Part shown: positions 17,082 through 20,914 of the stretch, in pieces
Layout of the letters: every line of letters starts with the position of its first letter
How positions within the stretch are numbered: position 1 is the stretch's first letter
Origin: Zwartia panacis
GTDB taxonomy: Bacteria > Pseudomonadota > Gammaproteobacteria > Burkholderiales > Burkholderiaceae_B
Assembly (NCBI RefSeq): GCF_030410395.1
Contig: NZ_JAUHHF010000002.1
Location: 372,001 to 436,000 of the forward strand
DNA length: 64,000 nt
Reading direction: 5' to 3'
Notes under the pieces: generated by a model
What the model was told of the DNA's origin: nothing
The model's input: only the letters and a program-made list of their open reading frames with translations
The model's database searches: none
Made by a program: the position numbers and the translations under genes

Positions 17082-17828
17082 CTATCGCTTTTGGACGACT
17101 TGCCTAAGCATTTGATGGGCTTGTCGTCCAAGCTCGGCTCGCGTCGGGGCCGGCGTGGTTTCGGGCGTCCATACCGGCGGTAAAAACTCGACCTCGATGA
17201 GAACACCCTTGCCTCCCAATACTCTCCACAGGTTTTGCATCAGATTTTCCTCGCCCACAAAAGCGGCGAAATCACTGCGGACGCCATGATGGAAAAACAA
17301 AAGTGCGACAGGTTGAATCGGGACTCCTGCACGCCGAGCAGGTTCAAAGAGATTGGCATAAAAGGGTAACAAGTCGTAACCCTGAGAGGTTGTCCCCTCG
17401 GGAAACAACCCCACCACCTGACCTCGCTCAAATGTATCCTGCATTGCCCGACCAACTTTCTGCACAGCATGCCGCGATGCACGCTCGATAAAAATCGTGT
17501 CCGCTCCTGCGACGAGCCAACCCAGCAAGGGCCAGCGGCGGATTTCACTTTTTGCGATAAAAACTGCTGCGCGCACGTGATTGATAGCAAAAATATCCAG
17601 CCACGAGACATGATTGATGACCCAAAGAGCCGGCCCTTGAGAAATCGGCAAACCTGAATGCGAAACTTCCACGCCACAAAGCGTTAAAAGGACACCAGAC
17701 CAGCGTCTCTTGATTTCAAGCCGGGCGCGCTGACCCACGAATGGAGAGACCAGGATCAAGGTCAGTAAGCCGATCAGTACCCAGGACAATGCGAGGGTGG
17801 CTCGAAATGTAAAGCGCAAAACATTCAC
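17082..17828 (-). CDS. plsC: 1-acyl-sn-glycerol-3-phosphate acyltransferase
   Basis: A 248-residue membrane acyltransferase making phosphatidic acid. An N-terminal helix (residues 10-30) precedes the HX4D motif NHVSWLD (His73, Asp78) and the substrate motif FPEGTTSQG (residues 142-150). It starts with GTG at 17828, overlapping the PyrC-like stop by four bases (GTGA). This pyrC'-plsC arrangement is one I know from Bordetella-type genomes. Confidence 0.9.
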   Translation of the reverse strand: MNVLRFTFRATLALSWVLIGLLTLILVSPFVGQRARLEIKRRWSGVLLTLCGVEVSHSGLPISQGPALWVINHVSWLDIFAINHVRAAVFIAKSEIRRWPLLGWLVAGADTIFIERASRHAVQKVGRAMQDTFERGQVVGLFPEGTTSQGYDLLPFYANLFEPARRAGVPIQPVALLFFHHGVRSDFAAFVGEENLMQNLWRVLGGKGVLIEVEFLPPVWTPETTPAPTRAELGRQAHQMLRQVVQKR

Positions 17829-19096
17829 GTCGTTCGTTCCCAGACGATTTCACCGCGCAAGACAGTGGTTTGAACACGTCCCGGCAACTCCCTGCCTAAA
17901 AACGGCGTATGCACACTCTCGCCAACAAGCGTGTCACGCCCCACCAACCAATACGCCTCAGGATCAACAAGACATAAATCCGCCGACTCACCGACAGATA
18001 AAGAGCCAGCCTGAGCGCCCAATATCTTTGCAGGGCCACACGTGACCCGACTGAATGCATCGACCCAATCGATACGCGCCTCTTGCGCCCATTTCAGGGT
18101 CAGCGACAACAAAAGCTCCAAACCGATCGATCCAGGTACAGCCTGGGCAAACGGCAAGTCCTTGTCACGGTCACTCAACGCGATGTGGTCTGAGCACACT
18201 GCATCAATCGTGCCATCCAGCAGACCACCGCGCAACGCATCGCGATCTCGCTGACCACGCAGTGGCGGATCCAGGCGAAAATGACTGTCGTAAAAGCCGA
18301 TATCGACATCGGTCAGGTGAAGGTTGTTTGCGGCGACATCACATGTCACCGGAAGTCCTTCTTTTTTTGCGCTGCGAACGATCGCAACGGACTCTAAGCA
18401 GGACAAGCGGCAAAAATGCATGCGCACACCGGTCGCGCGCTGCAACGCGAGTAGTGTGTGTAATCCGATCGTTTCCGCCTCCGCGGGGATACCCTGCAGA
18501 CCCAAACGCGTCGCGTAAGCTCCACTCGCGATTACGCCACCTTGAGACAACCAAAAATCCTGAGGGCGAAACCACATCGCATAGTCAAAGGTTTTTGAAT
18601 ATTGCAGCGCGCGTAAAAGCACCGAGGTGTCTTGCACCGGCACAAGACCTTGAGAAAAAGCCACACACCCCGCCAGCTTGAGCGCCACCATTTCGGTGAA
18701 TGCACGGCCATTCAAACCAGAAGTCATCGCACCCAAAGGATGCAATCTGAGTCCGTGACTCTGACGCAGAAGGGATTGAACACGCGCGACCGTATCCAGT
18801 ACAGGCACGGTGTCAGGTGGAACCACCACACTGGTCACCCCACCGGCAAATGCAGCCCGTATTTCTGCTGGAATGGTCGCGTTGGTGGGCACGCTAGACG
18901 GACTCAGGCGCGCGGCAAGATCGACCAAACCGGGCAAAACAAGTTTTCCTGTCGCATCAAGCACCCGGTCTGCGACAAACCCCTGCGGTATCGTCCCGAC
19001 CGCGACCACCACACCATCCGCGATACACACCTGCGCAAGTCGGTCGATCCGGTTCACCGGATCAAGCACGCGTCCATGCTGGATCAAAAGTTTCAC
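17825..19096 (-). CDS. PyrC' - dihydroorotase-like protein without its metal site
   Basis: A 423-residue member of the type I dihydroorotase family. The active-enzyme motif is D-L-H-x-H-L-R after PGLV. Here the segment reads DLAARLS (Asp59 to Ser65), with both metal-binding His replaced by Ala61 and Arg63 and the following Arg by Ser. A late CSDHIALSD keeps one Asp-His but not the usual DHAPH. This is the known non-catalytic PyrC' type, which in Pseudomonas builds the scaffold that PyrB needs to fold and work. The GTG start at 19096 has GGAGG upstream and overlaps the pyrB-like stop (GTGA). The open frame to 19231 is inside that gene. Confidence 0.85.
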   Translation of the reverse strand: MKLLIQHGRVLDPVNRIDRLAQVCIADGVVVAVGTIPQGFVADRVLDATGKLVLPGLVDLAARLSPSSVPTNATIPAEIRAAFAGGVTSVVVPPDTVPVLDTVARVQSLLRQSHGLRLHPLGAMTSGLNGRAFTEMVALKLAGCVAFSQGLVPVQDTSVLLRALQYSKTFDYAMWFRPQDFWLSQGGVIASGAYATRLGLQGIPAEAETIGLHTLLALQRATGVRMHFCRLSCLESVAIVRSAKKEGLPVTCDVAANNLHLTDVDIGFYDSHFRLDPPLRGQRDRDALRGGLLDGTIDAVCSDHIALSDRDKDLPFAQAVPGSIGLELLLSLTLKWAQEARIDWVDAFSRVTCGPAKILGAQAGSLSVGESADLCLVDPEAYWLVGRDTLVGESVHTPFLGRELPGRVQTTVLRGEIVWERTT

Positions 19097-19884
19097 GACT
19101 TCGCCTCCGCGACGATGCTCATCGCCGCCTGCTGAACGGCAAGACGCAAAACCTCTCGGCTCTCTTGACGATGGATGACTAGACAAGCTGATTGAGCGCA
19201 AGCAAGATTGATCGCAGTCAGTCCATAACACTGCAAATACTCATTCTCGGAGGGTAGCTCAGCGCCACGCATCTCGTCTGGTTCAAACCCAAGCATGATG
19301 ATGACATCAGCTTCTCCGAGACCCTGTTTCATTTCCGTGAATGCTTGCACTCCGAGTTGCGCAAGCCCCTCGGGTAACAGCGTCAGTGGCCCCACTACGC
19401 GCACTTGCGCCGTCCCCAGAGTAGTGAGCGCATGAATGTTGGAGCGTGCGACAGGGGAGTGCAAAATATCACCCACGATCGCGACGGTCAGATTGGAAAA
19501 ATCTTTTTTAACCTGGCGGATCGTCAACATGTCCATCAACGCGTCGATGGGAGCGGCATGGCAACCATCTCTTTCGTTCATGACATGCACTCGGGGACCG
19601 ACCTGCTGCGCGACCCAGTAGGGCAGACCACTCACCGAGGATTTCACCATCAAAATATCAGCCTCACGCGCAAGGCGATGGATATCGCTTAACGGCGCAT
19701 GGTCAGTATCGAAAGTCAGTACCCTCTTGCCATGCAACGCGGAAACTTTTTCACACCCAGCATCAGCCTGGGAGAGAAACATCTCCGCCGTGTCGAGAAG
19801 TCGCGTCAACATGACACGCGACAGTCCTTCAGTCGTGATCAGATGCGTGAGCTCTCCGCGCGAGTTGAGTTGAGGATGACGCAT
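19093..19884 (-). CDS. Degenerate aspartate carbamoyltransferase-like protein (pseudo-PyrB)
   Basis: A 263-residue protein plainly homologous to PyrB (about 310-330 residues) over NPQLN-like N-terminus, DFSNLTVAIVGDILHS and IHALTTLG. All substrate sites are gone. The carbamoyl-phosphate S-T-R-T-R segment and the 80s loop are deleted between HGKRV (residue 55) and DIHRLAREAD. The usual R-H is K81-S82. HPTQ is APID (111-114). The Arg of GDILHSR is Pro144. R-L-Q is G-F-E (199-201). HPGPxNRG is deleted near residue 238. It is open throughout and coupled to PyrC', so it is probably expressed as a structural or regulatory pseudoenzyme. Decay of a dispensable gene is the alternative. True ATCase must be encoded elsewhere, if the cell makes pyrimidines. 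Confidence 0.85.
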   Translation of the reverse strand: MRHPQLNSRGELTHLITTEGLSRVMLTRLLDTAEMFLSQADAGCEKVSALHGKRVLTFDTDHAPLSDIHRLAREADILMVKSSVSGLPYWVAQQVGPRVHVMNERDGCHAAPIDALMDMLTIRQVKKDFSNLTVAIVGDILHSPVARSNIHALTTLGTAQVRVVGPLTLLPEGLAQLGVQAFTEMKQGLGEADVIIMLGFEPDEMRGAELPSENEYLQCYGLTAINLACAQSACLVIHRQESREVLRLAVQQAAMSIVAEAKS

Positions 19885-19905
19885 GTCTTGCTTGAGCTCG
19901 TGTCC

Positions 19906-19937
19906 GTTTAAGTCAGTGCATGTTTAAGTCAGCGCAT
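19906..19937. repeat. 16-bp tandem duplication between pyrB-like gene and ruvX
   Basis: GTTTAAGTCAGTGCAT (19906-19921) is followed directly by GTTTAAGTCAGCGCAT (19922-19937), 15 of 16 bases identical. The second copy holds the ruvX stop codon. The duplication fills most of the 39-bp gap where, as I recall, related genomes carry pyrR. Confidence 0.8.
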
Positions 19938-20316
19938 CAAAATATCGCTGCAAGATGATAGCTGCCGCGACGGCATCATCAGGTTCATGACCCGTTATTT
20001 TTTGGGCTTCGACGCTTGAGCCCCTTTCGTCGACCAAAACAACGGGCACCCCAAAGCGCCCCTCAAGCTGACGCGCAAAACGTCGGCAATGCTGACTGGC
20101 GTATTGTTCGCCACCATCAGTCGCGAGCGCCAGACCCACTACCAGTCTTTCCGGCTGCCAGCGCTTGAGCAAAGCTTCGATTCTGGCAAACCGTCCATCG
20201 CGCGTGGCTTCTAAAATGATTTCCAGGGGCCGCGCCTGTTTGAGCAGGGTGTTACCCATGGCGACGCCCAATTTCTTGGCGCCGTAATCAAAAGCAAGAA
20301 GGGTTTCCTCAGGCAT
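19924..20316 (-). CDS. ruvX: RuvX/YqgF Holliday junction resolvase-like nuclease
   Basis: A 130-residue RNase H-fold protein of the RuvX/YqgF family, tied to pre-16S rRNA 5'-end processing and possibly to junction resolution. The acidic residues sit in AFDYGAKKLGVA (Asp near residue 10), VDERGSS near 93-99 and the C-terminal DDAVAAAIIL. It overlaps the end of the AlgH-like gene by 8 bp, a common pairing. Confidence 0.93.
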   Translation of the reverse strand: MPEETLLAFDYGAKKLGVAMGNTLLKQARPLEIILEATRDGRFARIEALLKRWQPERLVVGLALATDGGEQYASQHCRRFARQLEGRFGVPVVLVDERGSSVEAQKITGHEPDDAVAAAIILQRYFDALT

Positions 20317-20914
20317 GCCCCGCCGCGCCGGTCAGCATGACCGGATCAATCCCGAGAAGCTTGAGTGCCGCGGGGTAACGCTCCTGAGGCGGAATGTCAA
20401 AAATGATATTTTCTTGCGCAGGAACGCTCAGCCAGGCGTTTTGAGCCAGTTCGTTTTCGAGCTGACCCGCCCCCCAGCCTGCGAAACCCAAGGTCACCAA
20501 CAAGTGTTCCGGACCGTTACCATGCGCGACAGCCTCCAGTACATCCCGGGAGGTGGTCAGTGCCATTCGACCAAGTTTGATGCTGGAACTGTAATCACCG
20601 GCCGGCGAATGCAACACGAAACCGCGATCAGTCTGAACCGGACCACCGAAAAAAACTGCGGGTTGATGAGCGGGATGCTGATCAGCGGTTTGTCCTGGGG
20701 CGATTTCGAGCTTGAGTTCAAGCTTTTCCAGCAATCCAGCCAAACTCAAGTCGGTTGGACGGTTGATCACAAGGCCTAACGCGCCCTTAGGGCTGTGTTC
20801 GCACAAGTAAATCACAGTACCCGCCAAATCACCGGTCACCATACCCGGCATCGCCATCAAAAATTGATTGGAGAGGTCTGTCACTGTCTCGGGGGTGGGC
20901 TGCGATGAATCCAT
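20309..20914 (-). CDS. YqgE/AlgH family protein (UPF0301)
   Basis: A 201-residue AlgH-family protein. Recognisable segments are FLMAMPGM near residues 18-25, GALGLVINRPTDLSL near 55-69, VFFGGPVQTDRGFVLH near 105-120 and LVTLGFAGWGAGQLENEL near 157-174. The biochemical role is not settled; in Pseudomonas it affects alginate genes. It lies between rubredoxin and ruvX on the same strand and is part of one operon with them. Confidence 0.93.
   Translation of the reverse strand: MDSSQPTPETVTDLSNQFLMAMPGMVTGDLAGTVIYLCEHSPKGALGLVINRPTDLSLAGLLEKLELKLEIAPGQTADQHPAHQPAVFFGGPVQTDRGFVLHSPAGDYSSSIKLGRMALTTSRDVLEAVAHGNGPEHLLVTLGFAGWGAGQLENELAQNAWLSVPAQENIIFDIPPQERYPAALKLLGIDPVMLTGAAGHA

Follow-up and report, generated by a model that had tools for sequence, protein, structure and literature searches.

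Why would a bacterium keep the reading frame of an aspartate carbamoyltransferase (ATCase) gene open once the catalytic site of its product has gone? The question is raised by a degenerate pyrB gene, pyrB*, in a 64,000-nucleotide stretch of the Zwartia panacis genome (the window). A first-pass annotation of the window proposed that the protein has lost every substrate contact, that its scaffold is spared, and that it has been retained in a structural or regulatory role. On the minus strand the gene order is yqgE-ruvX-pyrB*-pyrC'-plsC (Table 1). The names yqgE and plsC are presumptive, and PyrB sites are numbered as in E. coli.

Table 1. Features of the pyrB* locus in the window.
Feature	Position	Strand	Basis
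plsC-type acyltransferase (context, control gene)	17082..17828	-	Pfam Acyltransferase 90.6 bits
pyrC' (pseudo-dihydroorotase, 423 aa)	17825..19096	-	NCBIfam PRK07627 568.9 bits, cut-off 442
pyrB* (apparently catalytically dead aspartate carbamoyltransferase chain, 263 aa)	19093..19884	-	ATG start, open frame
gap of 39 bp at the place of pyrR in canonical relatives	19885..19923		PyrR match counts in genus
ruvX (context, control gene)	19924..20316	-	family match
yqgE (context, control gene)	20309..20914	-	ORF; same order in relatives

The catalytic sites were read from an alignment to 18 canonical PyrB proteins, each of which carries 23/23 catalytic-site residues. A single one of the 23 is left in the window PyrB*, a histidine aligned with the HPGP loop; 50% of the non-catalytic positions of the reference from genome G023 are retained. 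The open frame and the scaffold words TVAIVGDILHS and IHALTTLG are all present, as first described. PyrB* falls below the cut-offs of NCBIfam PRK00856 (143 bits, cut-off 263), TIGR00670 (83 bits, cut-off 236.95) and both Pfam OTCace_N and OTCace, while a canonical PyrB from the window's genus scores 405.7 bits. The predicted structure of PyrB* is that of a transcarbamylase, with the ATCase fold.

Two aspects of the locus were missed by the first-pass annotation: the co-retained, likewise dead partner PyrC', and the loss of pyrR. Firstly, the GTG start of pyrC' overlaps the TGA stop of pyrB* (GTGA), giving the window an overlapping gene pair of class-A2 type (pyrB plus a pseudo-dihydroorotase). 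When PyrC' is aligned with the Aquifex dihydroorotase (3d6n_A), the metal-site H61-V-H63 reads A-A-R and H232 reads R, with the Asp of the DH motif retained (ligand numbers from passages of PMC3880350); PyrC' is thus a dihydroorotase-like chain without metal ligands. That the pair is kept because PyrC' supplies dihydroorotase activity is unlikely, given a PyrC above the TIGR00856 cut-off in 12/12 genomes tested. Secondly, in canonical relatives ruvX and pyrB are separated by pyrR. With a PyrR query that scores 224.9 bits against model NF003545 (cut-off 140), matches were obtained in 26/26 canonical and 0/6 degenerate genomes of the window's genus.

With a single exception, PyrB and PyrC' are present or absent together in the family. 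When matches were accepted at E < 1e-30 (PyrB) and E < 1e-70 (PyrC'), both proteins were detected in 149 of the 268 family genomes, PyrB only in one (G207, 65% complete), PyrC' only in none, and neither in 118; PyrC' is present in 149/150 PyrB-bearing genomes. PyrB matches weaker than 1e-30 were counted as other carbamoyltransferases, and 12 genomes with PyrC' matches of 1e-30 to 1e-46 (G071 included) were, as a matter of judgement, excluded as other amidohydrolases. Within Achromobacter the pair occurs in 41/43 genomes, the exceptions being G071, where the pyrB* start lies at a contig end, and G087, which is 78% complete.

The first-pass annotation had recommended searching the genome for a second, intact pyrB, and a second ATCase was found. 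The window genome (G000) encodes two further carbamoyltransferases: one of ornithine type, and a 420-aa ATCase of the PRK11891 type (ATC2; 738.4 bits, cut-off 560). In this genome, where its motifs were read, ATC2 shows STRTR, SMAKGE, RH, HPSQ, RIQKER (RxQ present) and HPLP; the ATC2 of a near relative, Zwartia vadi (G012), is 97% identical. Retention of PyrB* for want of another ATCase is rejected by the presence of ATC2, which is plausibly the gene that took over catalysis from PyrB. The first ~76 residues of ATC2 (L002:1261-1490, outside the window) are weakly HTH_3-like (E 0.015 alone, 15.8 bits, cut-off 23); with a DNA-binding-like N-terminus, ATC2 might regulate transcription.

In the window's genus, ATC2 and degenerate PyrB go together: ATC2 occurs in 6/32 genomes; those six have a dead PyrB, and the remaining 26 a canonical one. 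Across the family, ATC2 is over cut-off in 172/268 genomes, 60 with the PyrB/PyrC' pair and 112 without (about 111, once G071, whose pyrB* start is cut by a contig end rather than lost, is set aside). In these roughly 111 genomes, which have the long ATCase and no PyrB, it is probably the long ATCase that serves biosynthesis. The 60 comprise 55 with a dead PyrB in an open frame, four with an intact PyrB (G142, G245, G249 and G250) and one, G141, in which the gene is broken. A further 90 PyrB-bearing genomes lack an ATC2 over cut-off; one of them is degenerate (G093, 57% complete), and the other 89 were taken as canonical on residues inspected in a subset. Among the genomes with an inspected degenerate PyrB, G093 alone falls outside the ATC2 carriers. 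An ATC2-negative genome, G106, has its best PyrB match (G106:C1:1069494-1070075) over profile positions 1-186, in a 232-aa frame; the gene may be disrupted, or the assembly faulty.

Three of the intact-PyrB genomes with ATC2 (G142, G249 and G250) have less than 50 bp between their ruvX and pyrB matches. They suggest an order of events in which ATC2 was there first, pyrR went next, then the catalytic residues and, in many lineages, both genes. At the G142 locus (L172) pyrB is intact and pyrC' is shortened by an internal TGA, perhaps an early step of decay. In G249 and G250 (L176 and L177) the intact pyrB is not followed by pyrC'; the contig has its PyrC' match at a distance of roughly 10 kb.

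The degenerate PyrB is not peculiar to the window. Its carriers include the window's clade with Zwartia vadi, Jezberella, Achromobacter (genus g4), and genera g35 and g63. Catalytic-site residues were tabulated for 56 degenerate proteins: 41 from Achromobacter, six from the window's genus, and nine from g35 and g63. Each has 1 to 9 of the 23 residues left. H134, Q137, R229 and K84 are each found in 0/56, as are an intact STRTR and an intact HPGPMNRG (HPGPxNRG), although in two of the 56 (G069 and G079), which begin at contig ends, STRTR and the 80s loop are not visible. Partly retained are R105 (51 copies), H106 (49), R167 (25), Q231 (8, the window PyrB* not among them), S80 (3) and T136 (2). 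By comparison, 26 of the 27 canonical loci from the window's genus and G122 have 23/23 residues, and one has 22/23 (a 65% complete genome).

Since R105, H106 and R167 survive in many copies, the loss of contacts is not total everywhere. The Arg after GDILHS (R167) has gone from the window protein, as first described, but the original claim that all contacts are lost does not extend to the other copies. The sparing of the scaffold likewise needs qualifying: the scaffold words stand in the window, but Achromobacter PyrB* has lost 79 of 197 canonical-invariant positions in >90% of genomes and kept 76 in >=90%. The surviving R105 and H106, together with an H134 to D change fixed in 41/41 Achromobacter, could be taken to mean that PyrB* has become a transcarbamylase for another substrate. 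However, none of the 56 proteins shows an intact carbamoyl-phosphate motif, the 80s-loop Lys or HPGPxNRG, and the known transcarbamylases depend on a motif of STRTR type. We regard a change of substrate as extremely improbable.

The frame is open in 56 of the 57 degenerate loci inspected. The exception, G141, was left out of the residue table: at its locus (L231) the pyrB* match is split over two frames and pyrC' contains a single internal stop, making it the sole clearly broken pair among the 57. Assembly error is an unlikely cause of the degenerate state, which recurs in 56 loci. Two loci have other irregularities. In Jezberella montanilacus (G014; L034:3805-5681) much of the C-terminal part of PyrB* is absent, and PyrC' is cut down to 327 aa from about 430, both frames being open. 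At the G071 locus (L232) the pyrB* start reaches the contig end and the last ~35 codons are unlike those of relatives, which may reflect a frameshift or an assembly fault. A motif scan of named species genomes returned 44 stretches, of which 13, with no PyrB-like match, were dropped as chance. The other 31 lie inside PyrB*: 26 in Achromobacter (among them A. xylosoxidans, insolitus, ruhlandii and denitrificans), one each in Zwartia vadi and Jezberella montanilacus, and three in Burkholderiaceae MAGs. The scan pattern misses the copy in the window, and none of its matches is recognisable as a copy from g35 or g63. Our searches of open-access papers brought up none whose listing describes a lineage of catalytically dead PyrB.

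The conversion has occurred more than once. In a species tree of 35 taxa, built from ruvX, yqgE and plsC and covering 19 of the 56 degenerate genomes, the window's clade nests within canonical genomes with support of 99-100, apart from Achromobacter. The degenerate g35 genomes have the intact G142 as their sister (support 100); G271/G272 and G014 are placed elsewhere with weak support (52 and 58). There have been at least two conversions, and perhaps four or five; the count would be smaller if G142 had acquired its intact pyrB by transfer.

Selection on the pair was measured with a codon model (GY94, F3x4, own code). For five degenerate genomes of the window's clade, omega is 0.173 for pyrB*, 0.137 for pyrC', 0.100 for plsC, 0.036 for ruvX, 0.041 for yqgE and 0.020 for ATC2. 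The pyrB* data reject omega = 1 (2dlnL 301), and for this gene IQ-TREE returns 0.174. Because synonymous sites in this clade are saturated, the more closely related Achromobacter set was used. Across 38 Achromobacter, omega is 0.152 for pyrB*, 0.096 for pyrC', 0.047 for plsC, 0.032 for ruvX and 0.027 for yqgE; among 10 close ones (median nucleotide identity 0.81), pyrB* has an omega of 0.144 (2dlnL versus 1 of 595). In a 17-species subtree that covers about 18 neutral changes per codon, about 39 nonsense changes are expected in pyrB* under neutrality and none is present. The comparison of dN/dS across relatives that the first-pass annotation had called for thus gives 0.14-0.17, far under 1. 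Plain decay, which it proposed to recognise by stop codons in sister strains, is seen in one relative, G141, against an open dead frame in 56 loci. An ordinary pseudogene is rejected by these omega values (0.144-0.173) and by the open frames. PyrB* is almost certainly both catalytically dead and under selection, as judged from its residues and codons.

Constraint is unevenly spread. Regional omega in the 17 species is 0.072 over residues 1-35, 0.28 over 36-54 plus 73-79, 0.108 over 55-72, 0.33 over 80-98, 0.109 over 99-180, 0.090 over 181-227, 0.167 over 228-242, 0.107 over 243-268, 0.151 over 269-300 and 0.455 over 301-317. Segments that once formed the carbamoyl-phosphate and HPGP loops are under constraint in their altered form too, so that constraint reaches beyond an untouched scaffold. 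Such values bear on the idea that only translation is at stake: on this view a stop or frameshift in pyrB would reduce the output of the coupled pyrC' and plsC, while the protein sequence itself stands idle. The 4-base overlap between pyrB* stop and pyrC' start, found in 46/50 degenerate loci counted, fits such coupling, which nevertheless predicts an omega near 1 rather than the values observed (down to 0.072 at the N-terminus) and sits badly with the disappearance of both genes from many relatives. As the sole cause, coupling is refuted by omega unless an RNA-level constraint accounts for the amino-acid conservation, and we hold it to be very unlikely.

PyrB* and PyrC' also change in step. 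Their relative rates along 73 branches of the 38 Achromobacter correlate with r 0.74 (p 8e-14), against 0.05-0.40 for the nine other gene pairs; r is 0.86 on terminal branches, 0.54 on internal branches and 0.62 without the five longest. Adding seven g35 genomes gives 0.67, with 0.05-0.38 for other pairs. The adjacent pyrC' and plsC correlate at 0.28 (0.38 with g35), and PyrB* or PyrC' with the control genes at 0.24-0.40. Covariation between neighbouring genes can arise without contact between their products. On these rates and the shared occurrence of the genes, PyrB* likely still forms a complex with PyrC', and by analogy the pair would probably be a hetero-oligomer resembling the Aquifex and Pseudomonas dodecamers.

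Were each chain harmful when misfolded alone, a useless pair would be purged of single lesions until both genes were deleted together. This slow decay is the strongest null alternative because about 111 ATC2 genomes lack both genes. PyrB and PyrC' are indeed absent together, the P. aeruginosa chains are unstable alone (according to passages of PMC7053772), G141 is decaying, and both genes evolve fast. Set against it is the length of the retention—the pair persists in 41/43 Achromobacter, and the 17-species subtree spans its ~18 neutral changes per codon—and we consider this explanation unlikely. Slightly more credible, though still doubtful, is that PyrC' bears the selected function and PyrB* is merely its chaperone or stabiliser. 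PyrC' is the better conserved of the two in Achromobacter (112/161 canonical-invariant positions kept versus 76/197, in addition to its lower omega), yet it has no metal ligands, has itself lost canonical-invariant residues in Achromobacter (for example of the LREP segment), and in G014, G145, G271 and G272 matches well over its C-terminal part only.

The reading that we favour, with moderate confidence, is that PyrB*-PyrC' is a retained pseudoenzyme pair with a non-catalytic role: for a dead chain that repeatedly stays under constraint alongside an equally dead partner, the best explanation is a function of the pair that needs no catalysis. In this scenario, PyrB* would derive from the catalytic chain of an ATCase of class A2, in which, as in Pseudomonas, PyrB is live and PyrC' dead. 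The presence of the ~420-aa ATC2 would have freed PyrB from catalysis; pyrR and the carbamoyl-phosphate and aspartate sites would then have been lost, and PyrB* retained through a catalysis-free job of the pair. That job, which the complex may have done already when PyrB was an enzyme, might be to scaffold or regulate other proteins, most likely the enzymes of pyrimidine metabolism, for example as a docking site for carbamoyl-phosphate synthetase or for the active dihydroorotase. We put forward a scaffold or regulator in pyrimidine metabolism only tentatively. The structural or regulatory role first proposed for PyrB* is to this extent supported, in that retention by selection is demonstrated, the role itself being an inference.

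Several observations pull the other way. PyrB* and PyrC' evolve faster than their neighbours (Achromobacter omega 0.152 and 0.096 versus 0.027-0.047), both genes are broken in G141, and both proteins are shortened in G014. The loop regions 55-72 (0.108) and 269-300 (0.151) are constrained, so constraint does not simply pass over the old active site. Finally, with about 111 of 172 ATC2 genomes lacking the pair, its role is dispensable in those lineages.

The locus resembles known systems in part. The class-A2 ATCase of Pseudomonas, as covered in passages of PMC7053772, has the same gene pair with a dead PyrC', and canonical members of the window's genus match it in their intact PyrB active sites; the window differs in that its PyrB is dead too and ATCase can be supplied by another gene. 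In P. aeruginosa, the ATCase chain without the pseudo-dihydroorotase is inactive and monomeric (same source, in part). The Aquifex aeolicus ATC-DHO dodecamer (3d6n, 4bjh) has both activities, according to a portion of PMC4581275, whereas both window chains are without catalytic residues. A long ATCase (~430 aa, HPLP motif; PRK11891) is recorded for Burkholderia in the same paper; ATC2 is alike in its score and its STRTR, RxQ and HPLP motifs, and PyrB* is not that gene. YgeW-type carbamoyltransferases, also treated there, share with PyrB* a transcarbamylase fold and the want of a known role (function unknown), but their structures show use of carbamoyl phosphate, for which PyrB* has no site.

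In class-A2 ATCases the ATCase chain is live and the dihydroorotase dead; the two chains described here are both dead, yet selection still maintains the pair. Its deletion should therefore leave pyrimidine synthesis intact, so that a non-catalytic role can be tested directly. The family data also bear on a question left open in PMC4581275, namely whether one of the two Burkholderia ATCases has a catabolic role. For Achromobacter, the label pyrB on such genes would mislead metabolic models. More speculatively, PyrB-PyrC' might possess an ancestral second function independent of ATCase activity; a double-pseudoenzyme complex would then have arisen repeatedly, and the hidden role could be general to class-A ATCases, those of Pseudomonas included.
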